Source of the DNA: Carettochelys insculpta | Lineage: Eukaryota > Chordata > Testudines > Carettochelyidae | Length of the DNA stretch: 64,000 nt | Direction of reading: 5' to 3' | Assembly (NCBI RefSeq): GCF_033958435.1 | Contig: NC_134138.1 | Coordinates: 7,142,001-7,206,000 of the forward strand | Shown here: one piece after another, positions 31,320 through 40,552 of the stretch | Layout: every line of letters begins with the position of its first letter | Numbering within the stretch: the first letter of the stretch is position 1 | Notes under the pieces: model-generated | Database searches by the model: none | Told to the model about the DNA's origin: nothing | Seen by the model: the letters and a program-made list of their open reading frames with translations, nothing else | Position numbers and translations under genes: made by a program

Positions 31320-31394
31320 CACAGAGAGGTAGCTGTGTTAGTGTGTATTTTCACAAAAAAGCAGTCGTGTAGCACTTAAAGACTAACAAAATAA
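31320..31394. repeat. Left half of a Penelope hairpin split by the DIRS element
   Basis: It starts after 'acttcagctttt' (31308-31319) and reads 'gagaggtagctgtgttagtg' then 'gtagcacttaaagactaac'. Its continuation lies on the far side of the DIRS element at 37488-37568. Confidence 0.8.
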
Positions 31395-31397
31395 TTT
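31395..31397. other. Left TTT junction of the DIRS insertion
   Basis: TTT stands here and again at 37485-37487. The uninterrupted hairpin family reads 'aataatttattagg' at this point, so the target had one TTT. The complement AAA stands at the junction point of the internal complementary region (37159-37161). Confidence 0.75.
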
Positions 31398-31560
31398 CTT
31401 CTTCGAGTGTCCCCGTGGGTGCTCCACATTAGGTGTCGGGCTCGCCGGGCGCCGCAGATCGGATCTTCCAAGCAGTTTCTGCCGGACCGCGCATGCGCCG
31501 GTGCGCACCGCTCCCTTGCACGCTCCTGGCCACGTGCGCGATCCGGTCCCCGCCAGTTCC
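31398..31560 (+). repeat. DIRS left inverted terminal repeat
   Basis: From 'cttcttcgag' to 'ccccgccagttcc' this is the reverse complement of 37292-37458, with about half a dozen differences. It is CpG-rich. In DIRS elements this region holds the promoter; no TATA box is evident here. Confidence 0.9.
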
Positions 31561-31873
31561 TCTTAACCGCTGTCGGCTGCAGACGGAATCCGACTAGTCT
31601 ACGGCCAAGTTAGCGTATTCAATGGTTTTAACTGTTTTTCTTTAAAGTTTCCAAGTTCTTAGGCTACTGTTAAGTTAGCCAGTTGTTATTTTCAAAAAAA
31701 AAAGAAACAACAAGCGGGACGGCATTCAGTCCAGTCCTAGTAACAAGCGGAGCACCGGAGGCCAGGAGCCTAGGGCCATTAGCCCTCCTGCCGCGGCAGG
31801 CTATCGGAGAGGGGGAAAACAGCACAGAGAAGGTGCTCAAGTACCCCATTAACAACTGAAAGACTCACCAACA

Positions 31874-34107
31874 ATGTCCTATTCAGGATTCAAGGAATGT
31901 GAGTCTTGCTGAGAGGCAATGCCAGCGTCTGATGGGCACAGTCACTGCATAAGGTGCCTGGGGGAGTCCCATGTCACGCAGAAATGCTCCTTCTGTGTAA
32001 AATTAACAGCCAGAGCAAGGAAGGAAAGGGAGATGCGGCTTGAAATGCTGCTCTTTGACAAGGCCCTCCAGCCAGACGTGCCGGAGCGGCCGCAGCAGGA
32101 GGGACCCTCTGGGGCCCATAAAAGGGAAAGCCGCCTCCCTCACCCCATCAGCGCAAAAACGGAGGAAAATCTCCCCAGCCCGATCCCTGCCGGCAGCAAC
32201 ACCGAGCGGGACGGGAGGAGCGCACAGCCCCAGCCGCAGCAACAGCTGATCGGCGGCGGCACGGAGAGCCACGTGGAGGCGGCTCAGCCTCCGATAATCA
32301 AACAGCCGCCCCGCACCGCAGGCAGGGCAGCGGCTAAACAAGCGCCGGTACCGGCGGCACCACAAGCAGCGGCACCGACCCCGGGGAACCGGCAGTGCAG
32401 AGCGCGCAGGCACGCAGCCTGCAGGCACCGGAGGACACCGCCCGTGCGGCACCGCCCATAAGCCTGCCGAGCACGGTGCGGACGGGGCCGAGATCCCCTA
32501 CACGTCAGGGGGCTGAGCTGCTCTCTCAAGGGAGGGGGAAGGCTGCACACAAAACAAGGCACCACAGCCCCTCTTCAGACAGGGCTGCAGAGTTGCTTTC
32601 TCTCAGCCCTCCGCTCATGCTGCAGACTCCGACTAGGAGGCAGGGGTCCCCCCTAGCCTACCTGGAGCCCCCGTCTCCATTTTTACAACCAGCCTCGCCC
32701 TGGCTGGGACCACCTTCACCCTTCCTGGGGTTTGAGCCGCTGGAGTACTATCACAAATCGCTCTCTCCAGTGTCCCAGGTCTCTCGACGATCTCGCTCCC
32801 CCAGACGCAGAGGGTATGCACCAAGGGAGTGGTCTAGGTCACCTTCCCAAGAGCAGTGCCCATGCTGCCACGGTCGCCCCTATCATGCGGGGCATAGACA
32901 CCACCTGCAGTCTACCAGGGAAAGATCCCCACAGACGGTCCCGTATCCCCGAGGGCAATCGCGAACGGGGACAGAGACTCGAGTATCTCAGGGGGAACTG
33001 GTTATGGAACCCCGAGATTTTTCCCTTGCAAGCTTCCAGCGAGCGGATGTACCATCACCAACAGGAACCGGAAGGGTCCAGAGAGGTGTACCCTAGTGGT
33101 TCCTCGCTCTCCTCCCCGGACGAGGCTACGGCCCCGGGAGATGTCCATCCTCCGGACGATCTCAAACAGTTCCAAGAGCTGTTTTATGAGGGTGGCCTTC
33201 ACGCATGGCATCCAGACAGCAAAGGTGCAAGAGAAACACCATAAGCTCCTCAAAAATCTGAGACCTCCGGCCTCCTCCAAAATAGCAATACCGCTTGATG
33301 ACGCAACCTTGGAGTCCGCCACTATGATATGGCAGACTCCTGCGACTATTCCGCCTGTCCACAAGAGAGCGGGTAAAAAAAAAAAAAAAAATACTTCGTG
33401 CCCACAAAGGGCATGGAGTTCCTGTTCAGCCACCCACGACCAAATTCCTTGGTGGTGGAGTGGTCGCAACACGGGGGAACAGACAAACATGCCAAGAAGC
33501 TAGAGCTGTTCGGCAGAAAGGTCTACTCCTCCTCCACTCTACTGTTGCGAATGGCAAATTACGCAACGCATCTAGCGAACCATAATTTCGACAACCACAC
33601 TAGGTTAACCTCCCTCATGGACTCGCTTCCAGAGGGCAAGAAACCAGTGCTCAAGGCCATCATACAAGAAGGCTACGCGGCCTCGAGGACGGGAGTTCAG
33701 ATCGCCCTGGATGTTGCGGACACAGCAGCATGCTCCACAGCTACGGCAGTGGTGATGCGAAGGGAGTCCTGGCTCCAGACTCCGGGTATACCGAGGGCCT
33801 GCAAACAAAGATAGTCGATCTTCCCTTCGACTCGCAGAAGCTGTTTGCTGAATCAACTGACTTGGTCCTTCATTCCAGTAGAGATTCAAGAGCCACACTT
33901 AGGACCCTGGGGATTTACACCCCTCCATACAGAAAGAAAAAGTACTACCCTCAACAAAGACGGTACCAGTACCAGCAACAGCGTCCCCAGTACCACAGGG
34001 GTTACGAGCAAGGGCGACATCAACAGCACCAGCAATACAGAACTCCCAGGCAACGTTCCCAACAGAGCCGTGCGTCCTCGGGGCAGGGCCAAAGGCCACA
34101 AGTTTGA
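31874..34107 (+). pseudogene. DIRS gag-like ORF, frameshifted
   Basis: The likely start is ATG at 31874, followed after 12 codons by a TGA at 31910-31912. A second ATG at 31919 opens the rest. Near its N-terminus is CIRCLGESHVTQKCSFC, a C-x2-C-x4-H-x4-C-x2-C zinc-binding pattern typical of vertebrate DIRS gag. A proline/arginine-rich middle follows, then a conserved alpha-helical block (GIQTAKVQEKHHKLL onwards; EFLFSHPRPNSLVVEW), then a QY/RQ-rich basic tail ending at 34107. Continuity requires about five frame changes, near 32400-32460, 33050, 33190, 33380 and 33790. The one at 33380 coincides with a 17-A tract. Role by family: packaging of element RNA. The copy is dead. Confidence 0.8.
33375..33391 (+). 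repeat. A17 homopolymer at a gag frameshift
   Basis: Seventeen consecutive A follow 'gagagcgggt'. The upstream block reads frame 0 up to a lysine run; the downstream block (FVPTKGMEFLF) reads frame 2. Expansion of a lysine-coding A run is the simplest cause of this frame change. Confidence 0.85.
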
Positions 34108-34149
34108 CACACAGATCCAGGGCTGCGCCATCACTACCATCGCACAAGG

Positions 34150-36052
34150 TCATCCGAAGCGGTTATTCCACCATCGCCTCCAACCATTCTTAACCAGTGG
34201 CAAAGGATCACCACAGACAAATGGGTGCTGGAGATCATAGCCACGGGGTACGCCGTCCCCTTCCAGTCGCTCCCACCGCCACGACCTCCACCCAGGCCCC
34301 ACCTCCAGGAGGCCTCCCATGTAGCGAGGCTCAAGCAGGAGGTAGACCATCTCATGCTTATAGGGGCAGTGGAAAGAGTGCCGGAGCAACTGCAAGGGAG
34401 AGGGTTCTACTCGAGGTACTTCCTCACGGGGAAAAAGACAGGAGGCTGGAGGTCCATCTTAAATTTTCGAGGCCTCAACCGGTACCTGCACAAGCAACGC
34501 TTTCGGATGATCACAATCGCCTCCATCCTTACGGCACTAGACGATGGAGATTGGTTCGCAGCCCTCGACTTACAAGATGCGTATTTTCACATAACTATTC
34601 ATCCGGCTCACCTATGATTCCTCTGGTTTTCACGGTAGGCAAAGAACATTTTCAATACAAGGTCCTACCGTTTGGCCTCTCCTCGGCCCCCAGAGTCTTC
34701 ACCAAGACCTTGGCAGTGGTGTCAGCCTACCTGCACAGACAGGGGGTATTTATATTCCAGTATCTGGATGACTGCCTACTCAAAGGGGCCTCGAAGGAGG
34801 AGGTACTACGCATGATATGCGTCACAGCAGGCACGTTCTCTTCGCTCGGCCTGGTTATCAATCTGACAAAATCAAAGATAGACCCCACACAGGACATAGA
34901 GTTTGTAGGGGCACGCATAAATTCTATTACAGCGAGAGCGTATCTACCAGAGACACGCTTTCGGGCCATCGGCTCCCTCGTGCAAGTCTTCACCTTCAGC
35001 CCTACGGTGCTGGTTCTGACGTGCTTACAGCTGCTGGGCCACATGGCAGCAGCGACGTTCGTAGAACAGAACGCCAGGTTACACATGCGCAGCATGCAGC
35101 ACTGGCTGGCGAGCGTATACAAACCAGCAGCGCACACTGTTCACAGGGTGGTGTCGCCCACAACAGAGGTGCGCAAATCCCTGCAATGGTGGGTAAACCC
35201 CGAGAACCTGCTAACAGGGGTACCCTTCCACCAACCACACATATTGGTTTTTTCTTACTACAGATGCCTCCCTCATAGGGTGGGGAGCACACGTGGGCGA
35301 AGAGGTGACGCAAGGGCTGTGGTCCTCCACGGAGTAGTCACTGCACACAAATATACTGGAGCTCAGAGCAGTGTTCAACGCCTGCAGACACTTTCGAGAC
35401 CATATAAAAGGCAAAGTAGTCGGGATCAGTACAGACAATACCTCCACCATGTTTTATATAAATCGGCAAGGAGGAGCTCGGTCCCGTGCCTTATGTGCGG
35501 AAGCAGTCCGGTTGTGGAACTGCTGCATCGCCAACAATATAACCTTGAAAGCCGCATACTTACCAGGCGCTCACAATGTGAAGGCAGACCAGCTGAGCAG
35601 GCGTTTCGCACTCACGCACGAGTGGCAGATCCGTCCCGATCTGCTGCGACCGATTTTTCACGCATGGGGTTTTTCGCCAGATAGACCTGTTTGCTACTCA
35701 GCACAACAAGAAGTGCCCACGATTCTGCTCCAGGGCAGGACTGGGACGGGGGTCCCTGAGGGACGCCTTCGCGATCTCATGGAGGGGCCCCCTGCTTTAC
35801 GCTTTCCCTCCCACAGTGCTCATCCACAAAGTGTTGCAGAAAGCCTGGAGGGAAGGAGCCTGAATGATCCCGATAGTCCCAACGTGGGATCGACAGCAAT
35901 GGTTCCCCCTACTCCTGCGCATGTCGGACCGGCCACCGATGCCCCTTCCGGTGGCGCCGGATCTGCTCACGCAAGCCCAGGGGTCCGTAGTGCATCCGCA
36001 CCCCCAAGGCCTGCGACTACAAACGTGGTTAATCCATGGCTCAGCTCCCTAG
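34150..36052 (+). pseudogene. DIRS pol: reverse transcriptase, RNase H and C-terminal domain
   Basis: RT begins before 34225 in frame 1. It shows GFYSRYFLT and GGWRSILNFRGLN (fingers), then ALDLQDAYFHI (catalytic block A) up to a stop at 34617. It resumes in frame 0 with LPFGLSSAPRVFTK and the second catalytic block FQYLDDCLL. RNase H follows in frame 1 with its acidic residues visible as TTDAS (near 35255), ELRA and STDNT. A TAG falls between the first two, at about 35336. A final block in frame 2 (about 35690-36052), corresponding to the methyltransferase-like end of DIRS pol, is cut by a TGA at 35862. Role by family: copying RNA to DNA and degrading the RNA strand. Confidence 0.85.
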
Positions 36053-37079
36053 AGAGCACATGTACGGAGGAAGTGCAGCAAGTCCTAGAAAGTAGCAGGA
36101 GGACTTCCACCAGGAAGACCTACAAGCAGAAATGGACTCGCTTTACGGCATGGTGTTCTACCAAACAGCGAGCCCCCCTTTCGGTGCCTATGGCTGTGAT
36201 ATTAGAGTATTTACTGGACCTCAAGAGAGGACGACTCTCACTATCCTCATTTAAGGTCCACCTTGCCGCCATTTTGGCGTTCAGACACGAAGAGGAAGGG
36301 CACACGGTGTTCGCCCATCCCATGGTTACCAGGTTCCTCAAAGGGCTGGTAAACCTATACCCCCCTCGGAAACTGCTTCCACCTTCGTGGAACTTGGACC
36401 TGGTGCTTAATGCGAAAACGGGACCACCGTTCGAGCCTTTGGCCACGGTTTCCCTCCGCCTCCTTATGATAAAGACGACCTTTCTTCTCGCAATCACGTC
36501 AGCTCGCAGGGTGAGCGAGCTTGCGGCAGTTATGGCAACGCCACCCTGCGCTGTTTTTTCCAAGGAGGCGGTAACCATACGGCTGCATCCAGCCTTTGTT
36601 CCTAAAGTTTCTTCTGAGTTTCATACTAACGAACCTATCGTTTACCCTCATTTTATCCAAAGCCTCATAACTCTAACAAAGAGGCGCGCCTACACCTCCT
36701 GGACGTGAGGAGGCGCTAGCTTTCTATATAGACAGGACCAAGTCCTTCCGGAGAACGGATAGACTCCTAGTCTCTATCGCTCCCAAATGAAAAGGAGAAT
36801 GTCTCTCTTCGCAGAGAATCTCGAAGCACATCGTATCTTGCATAAAAATGTGCTACAAACTCAAAAAGACTCCTTTACTGGCCATGCCCAGGGCTCATTC
36901 CACTAGGGCGGTGGCGGCATCAACAGCCTTTTTTCAAGGGCGTTGCGCTAAAAGACATTTGCAGAGCGGCGACCTGGTCATCCTGTGACACCTTCGCCAA
37001 ACATTACGCCCTTCACAGGGTATTCCAAGAGGATACCCGTCTCTCGGCAGCGGTCCTCTCGGGGACAAGCTGCACGTAA
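35899..37079 (+). pseudogene. DIRS tyrosine recombinase, frameshifted
   Basis: A frame 1 ATG at 35899 lies inside pol, so the two genes overlap in different frames by about 150 bp. The recombinase N-terminal region (TRKTYKQKWTRFTAWC) and the box I arginine context (LAITSARRVSELAAVM) are open until a TGA at 36706-36708. Downstream, after frame changes and a further TGA near 36787, the H-x-x-R box HSTRAVAAS is readable. The C-terminus (FAKHYALHRVF, with a plausible nucleophile Tyr) ends at TAA 37077-37079. Role by family: inserting the circular DNA copy by strand exchange at a short homology. Without the frame changes all main catalytic landmarks would be present; in this copy the C-terminal half is disconnected. 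Confidence 0.85.
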
Positions 37080-37120
37080 TCCGATTACCCACCTCCTATC
37101 TTGGGTTACTGCTGGGTAGT

Positions 37121-37221
37121 CACCTAATGTGGAGCACCCACGGGGACGCTCGAAGAAGAAAGAAAAGTTACTCACCGTAGTAACGGTGGTTCTTCGAGAT
37201 GTGTCCCCGTGGGTGCTCCAC
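37121..37221 (+). repeat. DIRS internal complementary region (circle junction)
   Basis: 37121-37158 is the reverse complement of the left end of the element with one difference. 37162-37221 is the reverse complement of the right end with two differences. AAA at 37159-37161 joins them. In DIRS elements this region is the template that lets the ends be restored and circularised. Confidence 0.9.
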
Positions 37222-37291
37222 TACCCGCCCATCCTCCCCGCTCCGGATCTCTGTTTAGTGTTTTGCAGGAGCATCCGAGGTGGTTGGTCAA

Positions 37292-37484
37292 GGAACTGGC
37301 GGGGACCGGATCGCGCACGTGGCCAGGAGCGCGCAAGGGAGCGGCGCGCACCGGCGCACGTGCGGTCCGGCAGAAACTGCTTGGAAGATCCGATCTGCGG
37401 CGCCGGGCGAGCCCGACACCTAATGTGGAGCACCCACGGGGACACATCTCGAAGAACCACCGTTACTACGCTGAGTAACCTTTC
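37292..37484 (+). repeat. DIRS right inverted terminal repeat with terminal extension
   Basis: 37292-37458 is the inverted partner of the left repeat. 37459-37484 is an extra ~26-bp terminal extension absent at the left end but present in the internal complementary region. Such unequal ends are known for DIRS elements. Confidence 0.9.
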
Positions 37485-37487
37485 TTT

Positions 37488-37568
37488 ATTAGGCGATAAG
37501 CTTTGAAGAAGTGGGTCTGCCCCATGAAAGCTCATCACTTAATAAAAAATTTTGTTAATTAAAGTGGT
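37488..37568. repeat. Right half of the split Penelope hairpin
   Basis: It reads 'attaggcgataagc' and then the inverted arm 'gggtctgccccatgaaagc'. It is followed by 'actttagctttt' at 37569-37580, which matches 31308-31319 at 11 of 12 positions. The two halves and their duplication show one older insertion split by the DIRS element. Confidence 0.8.
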
Positions 37569-37599
37569 ACTTTAGCTTTTGTTTATTGCCCACTTTTAA

Positions 37600-40098: not shown

Positions 40099-40552
40099 CG
40101 GGTTGAACCTCTCTAATCCAGAACTCTCCTGGCCGGCAAACTCTGGCATGATTTTGGTTAGCTAGATGACCGCTTATCATGGGTGTGGCTGTGTTTCCCA
40201 TGGTCCCATAAAATTTGTTTGCAGCCACCAGTCCTGGTTCTCAGTATTCCAGATCCGAAGAAGTAGGTCTGTCCCACGAAAGCTCATCCCCTAATAAATT
40301 ATTGTGTTAGTCTTTACAGTGCTACCGGACTGCTTTTTTGTTTTGTGAAGGTACAGACTAACATGACTACCTCTCTGAGTGTTCTGTGCTGTTATTTAGC
40401 TGTAATTTACCCCTAAATGTCTTCTAAGAGCCCAGTAAGCAGTGGAAGTGTTGGTAATGTGCTAGAAAATATTGACTTTCCATAGTCCAGCAAATTCTCT
40501 TGTCCAGTACCAGTCGGCTCCCAAGAGTGCTGAGTGAGAGAGGTTCAACCTA
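40099..40552. mobile_element. MITE with GGTTGAACCTCTCT termini, interrupted
   Basis: The left end 'ggttgaacctctctaatcc' (from 40101) and the right end 'gagagaggttcaacct' (to 40551) are inverted copies, with TA close outside both. The interior is interrupted by a Penelope tail at 40251-40373. TA-flanked and without transposase, it is a non-autonomous DNA transposon, probably Tc1/mariner-group. Confidence 0.75.
40251..40373. mobile_element. Penelope tail inserted in the MITE
   Basis: It has the usual motifs 'ggtctgtcccacgaaagctc' and 'ggtacagactaacatgac'. An imperfect 12-bp repeat flanks it: 'tctcagtattcc' (40239-40250) and 'tctgagtgttct' (40374-40385), 9 of 12. It is a one-arm copy. Confidence 0.65.

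Follow-up and report, generated by a model that had tools for sequence, protein, structure and literature searches.

A DIRS1-like retrotransposon lineage in Carettochelys insculpta that probably spread using tyrosine recombinase provided in trans

A DIRS1-like tyrosine-recombinase (YR) retrotransposon of ∼6.1 kb lies at positions 31396–37487 of the window (the whole 64-kb stretch of Carettochelys insculpta DNA analyzed here) and runs from a TT at 31396–31397 to a TT at 37486–37487. The element is a DIRS-type YR retrotransposon, and as such is of a known kind. Sequence comparison with copies picked for resembling the window suggests that the window copy is probably an old, non-autonomous member of a lineage that lost its YR and kept inserting with YR provided in trans. 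The interest lies in this long-lived YR-less lineage, the element type being otherwise known.

Structure of the element

All features are given on the plus strand. The left and right inverted terminal repeats (ITRs), at 31396–31561 and 37291–37456, form inverted pair I1 with arms of 166 nt that are 94% complementary. An inverted-repeat comparison placed an internal complementary region (ICR) at 37121–37221, near the 3′ end of the element. On the left, 37121–37161 is complementary to the left end over 41 nt (98%); on the right, 37156–37221 is complementary to the right end over 66 nt (95%). The two parts overlap at the junction, such that the ICR corresponds to the two ends joined together, with a junction reading TTT. 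The available part of PMC3266345 defines an ICR in these terms, as a 3′ region complementary to both ends whose parts overlap at the junction. Past the right ITR, inverted pair I2 extends beyond I1 into a right extension (37457–37485) that pairs with the ICR only, and this is followed by the second TT (37486–37487) and then by flanking DNA. Ends at 31398 and 37484 had been proposed in a first-pass annotation of this DNA, within 1–3 bases of those determined here. Neither long terminal direct repeats nor split direct repeats were found in the element, the longest direct repeats being of 40 and 32 nt and products of the ITRs and ICR. No further pieces of the element were found elsewhere in the 64-kb window (blastn, 1e-5).

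The coding blocks occur in the expected order, namely gag, reverse transcriptase (RT), RNase H-like, putative methyltransferase (MT) and YR. As judged from ORFs and motif placement, gag, pol and YR of the window copy are spread over several reading frames. A gag-like N-terminal CCHC zinc knuckle (C-x2-C-x4-H-x4-C) is present at 31946–31987, and residues 31–144 of the frame at 33377–33811 form a LAP2alpha-like gag block (33467–33808; Pfam PF11560, E 3.5e-4, 20.5 bits, under the Pfam cut-off of 25). The RT core (34564–34917) is matched by RVT_1 in two frames, with E values of 0.0034 and 2.1e-12, the latter above the cut-off. It includes a motif A-like stretch at 34564–34593 and, in a different frame, YLDD at 34758–34781. 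RNase H-like blocks follow the RT in a single frame at 35260–35601 (RT_RNaseH, E 0.1), and the C-terminal pol block after RNase H, at 35678–35926, is assigned as a putative methyltransferase from its place and residues (Dam, E 0.096, 12.8 bits). Both profile scores are under their cut-offs, and the two labels are putative ones supported by order and motifs.

The YR (36094–37013) was recognized by profiles and motifs in three frames. One carries the core-binding part and the Arg block (36490–36522), a second the HSTR block (H-x-x-R, 36890–36922) and a third the Tyr block (36987–37013). Phage_int_SAM_4, which represents the YR core-binding part, scored E 7.8e-4, under its Pfam cut-off, and a profile built from 16 related database proteins matches Cre-type recombinases (engineered Tre, 5.9e-5; Cre, 0.002). 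Indels private to the window copy are located near 33373, 34190 and 35248. Of five copies compared, the window copy is the only one whose A run at 33373–33395 is longer, by 11 bases.

The ITRs, the ICR, the domain order and the RVT_1 match bear out the earlier assignment of the element as a DIRS tyrosine-recombinase retrotransposon. In the domain search by HMM that had been proposed along with it, RVT_1 scored above its cut-off and RT_RNaseH and Phage_int_SAM_4 below theirs. Its description as structurally complete holds for the anatomy and fails for the genes, given the scattered frames of gag, pol and YR.

Integration sites

The window element interrupts a SINE, of which one part forms the left flank (31320–31395) and the remainder the right flank (37488–37570). 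When joined, the flanks match other SINE copies, the best match in the window being at 40341–40279 (90%); one match also lies in L038. The single base before the left TT, designated “x”, is T31395 in the window.

All 19 left ends that could be compared begin TT-CTTCTTC (L011 and L015 are outside this set, the left end being absent from their pieces), and x varies freely among them (A in 6, C in 4, G in 7 and T in 2). Right ends read CTTTC-TT, and the next base, “y”, is T in 20 of 21 and C in one (L018). The extra T at the right end belongs to the element and not to the target. Unoccupied target sites were recognized as matches to the joined flanks. For L017, all eight relative loci are gapless at the joint, with exactly two T in seven of them. 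All four empty sites are gapless for L028, as are four of six for the window SINE, where two in-window SINE copies have a 4-base gap beside the joint. Those of L012 are ambiguous, being gapless in two of four. Note that among the 40 places scored with a joined-flank query from six copies, L017's repeat alone was represented. The empty sites of L017, L028 and the window SINE show that insertion leaves no target duplication and that the bases shared by target and element are TT only. The TT is thus the core common to both, and would be the crossover site.

According to the available text of PMC3266345, the published DIRS model has insertion at a 3-bp sequence identical to the junction. We did not find targets identical to the TTT junction as a rule, as x is T in only 2 of 19 copies and the empty sites of L017 share TT. 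This mismatch concerns a detail of the model and is no bar to DIRS1-like membership, since table 3 of PMC3266345, in the part available, already lists NTT starts and ends unlike the junction. DIRS integration has so far been known mainly from models. Young copies with alike ends, fixed ICR junctions and empty sites provide a natural record of it, in which the base preceding the TT at the left end varies with the target, TT is shared and there is no duplication.

Copies in the genome and shared lesions

Three probes (ITR, right end and RT) each matched 40 of 40 scored places in the turtle genome, the window's own included, at identities of 96–100% (ITR) and 97–100% (right end and RT). With each of three probes matching at every scored place, the element is not a product of chance, and the many copies with the same ends predicted at the outset do exist. 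First-look candidates numbered 1,445, 3,431 and 4,035 for the ITR, right-end and RT probes, respectively; these are mostly unscored, and copy numbers depend on them. We retrieved 20 copies chosen by their right ends and, for 12 chosen by their RT, the YR part, along with two YR-open copies and several smaller loci. Similarity to the window was the basis on which all copies were picked, and two of the YR lesions fall within the right-end probe, so that the 12 chosen by RT serve as a less biased check. Flanks differ among the fetched copies, which are therefore real separate insertions. What appeared to be a tandem element with two right ends at C6:103575675-103577308 was rejected as such, as this locus (L067, C6:103574800-103577600) is a DIRS copy inserted at TT within the YR region of a second one. 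The left flank of L014 (1–904) is a DIRS fragment ending at the insertion point, and its right flank is not DIRS.

Lesions were compared between 33 copies (21 chosen by right end, including the window, and 12 by RT) and four YR-open loci. The first YR frame lesion is present in all 33 copies and the second in 32, with L019 having a lesion of different length at the same place. A nearby second insertion in L057 makes the second lesion a multiple of three, leaving the first as the one that breaks its frame. The third lesion is found in 26 of 33; three copies have a longer one and L010, L020, L056 and L057 have none. Three further YR lesions are found in 24, 14 and 13 of the 33. In the tree of the 3′ part, L010 and L020, the copies in it that lack the third lesion, branch closest to the YR-open copies, and YR lesions thus nest by subfamily. 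To judge from these alignments, the YR gene was apparently already broken in the ancestor shared by all sampled window-like copies. The lesions are common to copies with distinct flanks, so loss of YR apparently came before the spread of the lineage.

The RT is also damaged. The frame lesion of the window near 34.6 kb is common to 4 of 21 copies, and others have lesions of different length there. Thirteen of the 20 fetched copies (L012–L014, L017, L018, L021–L028) are without about 80 nt of RT near 34.6 kb and about 0.5 kb near 33.7–34.2 kb, the latter loss falling at the gag-pol boundary. A repeated gag stretch occurs in many of these RT-reduced copies.

A codon test covered YR sites at which the youngest subfamily has a fixed difference from the remaining broken copies; 8 of 20 fall at third positions, no excess. 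This test has little power; the corresponding values are 3 of 10 for D versus A/C and 11 of 20 (p 0.055) for shared variants in six YR-open copies.

A probable exchange of the 5′ half

Relatedness changes sharply near 33.1–33.2 kb when the window, L016, L019 and L024 are compared with L065 and L066. Upstream of the change, the 5′ halves of C and B copies differ from the window by 7–19%; downstream, differences are mostly 1–5% for C. A tree of 32540–33180 separates the window and the YR-open copies from the C and B copies by a branch of 0.079 (support 100). The same split in a tree of 34690–36300 is only 0.0013 long (support 86). We considered a recombinant origin for the window's own subfamily and dropped it, as the long branch lies on the C/B 5′ half. 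Given that branch of 0.079, compared with 0.0013 in the 3′ part, the C and B subfamilies more likely hold the exchanged 5′ half.

Age from repeat divergence

The left and right ITRs of the window copy differ at 5 of 154 positions and the ICR and the ends at 3 of 102, for a total of 8 of 256. At published turtle rates per site and year of 8.43e-10 (Pelodiscus) or 4.77e-10 (Chelonia), as quoted in the available part of PMC4263362, insertion would date roughly to 18–33 Myr ago (18.5 or 32.8 Myr). For these counts base x was dropped from all copies, and one site each in L019 and L024 was counted twice. L017 and L018 each have two mismatches beyond the 62-nt ICR part used elsewhere, which were not counted.

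Seven of 19 copies with both ends show no ITR or ICR-versus-end differences, and all seven fall in the most reduced subfamily. L009 and L020 are the only ones of the 19 with more differences than the window. Terminal tree branches of 0.8–1.4% correspond to about 9–30 Myr, again roughly. Most ITR and ICR differences occur in a single copy, and the data fit a model in which each end is remade in every round from the other end and the ICR. The first-pass annotation had read the window copy as a fairly recent insertion despite its broken ORFs. The recent date is not borne out, as the copy has 8 of 256 repeat differences and an age of roughly 18–33 Myr where 7 of 19 copies show none. As several of its frame lesions are common to other copies, the lineage is better read as already broken before the window copy inserted.

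YR-open relatives and mobilization in trans

The same genome contains copies that share these ends and have an open YR gene. In a search with the open YR protein P0003, 116 of 125 scored places (out of 20,416 candidates) are stop-free within the match, with open frames of up to 1,088 residues; these are the best matches to an open protein and hence biased to open copies. Among the 40 scored ITR places, at least six lie ∼4.8 kb upstream of a YR-open place in the same orientation (C21, C16, C3, C2, C5 and C18, compared by hand). At the right end, four YR-open loci show 93.6–96.1% identity to the window copy; over the leftmost 1.6 kb, seven ITR loci, including two that are YR-open, show 93.5–95.9%. 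Two whole YR-open copies also have breaks in pol, and for this reason neither is claimed to be autonomous.

We infer that the YR, and for one subfamily the RT, came from YR-open relatives. The order of steps in the cycle is that of the published DIRS model, as applied here by inference. The element would be transcribed and then reverse-transcribed by RT from related copies. The two ends would pair on the ICR and be closed into a circle, and YR supplied in trans would join the TTT junction of the circle to a genomic TT, with no target duplication. After loss of the YR gene in the common ancestor, the lineage could have continued to insert in this manner while gathering more YR lesions.

A broader proposal, to which we give an even chance, is that the YR-less lineage persisted and amplified for tens of Myr in one turtle. 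It would have lost YR first, next had its original 5′ half replaced by a divergent one through exchange, and lastly shed part of RT, with only the ends and ICR kept intact. On this view the ends and ICR would suffice for mobility, with crossover at a 2-bp TT, and the lineage would be a trans-mobilized class of DIRS. Subfamilies that lose YR and then RT and retain their termini may indicate which parts must stay in cis. Neither “non-autonomous DIRS” nor “nonautonomous DIRS” occurs in the open-access papers searched; this is no proof of novelty, as most subscription papers and the Repbase Reports are outside the scope of that search.

Alternative explanations

A first alternative, that an autonomous DIRS copy decayed after a fairly recent insertion, has in its favor that every domain and repeat is present in order and that the window has private changes such as the three indels described above. 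Its YR lesions nevertheless recur at other sites, one in all 33 sampled copies and another in 32 of them, and its repeats differ at 8 of 256 positions. For the YR gene, the common lesions refute such decay unless they were spread by gene conversion, and overall we consider this account improbable. Insertion of intact copies followed by spread of the lesions through conversion is itself only slightly less improbable. The numerous near-identical copies would provide for it, and the mosaic 5′ and 3′ halves are a sign that sequence was exchanged within the family at some stage. Lesions that nest with the tree of copies argue against it, as do the youngest copies, those with no ITR or ICR differences, which all have these lesions; every sampled copy would need to have been converted soon after insertion.

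Two further accounts have still less to recommend them. If the broken YR were still produced, by frameshifting or from pieces, then the lineage would be self-sufficient, and the window does retain all YR catalytic blocks, albeit in three frames. We regard this as very improbable in light of the multiple frame changes in one domain, which are more numerous in the younger subfamily, and of the 13 of 20 copies without ∼80 nt of RT and ∼0.5 kb upstream. Least probable is membership in another group, either of YR elements (PAT-like or Ngaro) or of LTR retrotransposons. Such elements have partly the same set of enzymes, but inverted ends and an ICR in an element without an LTR or split direct repeats point away from them. 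Our preferred reading remains an old, non-autonomous lineage mobilized by YR provided in trans.

Comparison with known elements

AcDIRS1 and AcDIRS2 from Anolis carolinensis, as described in the available part of PMC3266345 (Piednoel 2011), are similar to the turtle element in length (5.9–6.0 kb versus 6.1 kb), in the two ICR parts (39–40 and 58–60 nt versus 41 and about 62) and in the right extension (26–28 nt versus about 29–31). According to the same text, the junction of AcDIRS2 is TTT/AAA and its YR and pol overlap over a long stretch, as in YR-open turtle copies. Unlike the Anolis elements as presented there, the window copy has a YR broken by inherited lesions, and the base preceding TT varies within one turtle family. 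DIRS-like families of Xenopus share a LAP2alpha-type ORF1, RT-RH with MT, a YR ORF, an ICR and a terminal TTT, with ITRs of about 120 bp compared with 166 nt in the turtle, in the portion of PMC9210276 available. Xenopus protein relatives of the turtle element are about 34% identical to it. DIRS1-like repeats of Chrysemys and Pelodiscus are alike in their LAP2alpha-like gag, ITRs and high copy number in turtles; the available portion of PMC4495291 (Abascal 2015) describes no trans-mobilized YR-less lineage among them.

Related YR proteins are also encoded by gene models of Carettochelys insculpta. LOC142024640, LOC142013107 and LOC142012530 have open frames and are 64–89% identical to the window frame, and these annotated “uncharacterized proteins” are DIRS recombinases. 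Another database protein, P0024, resembles this DIRS element and is filed under a bacterial MAG (Candidatus Thiodiazotropha, with a bivalve-host name); it may represent host DNA in the bin.
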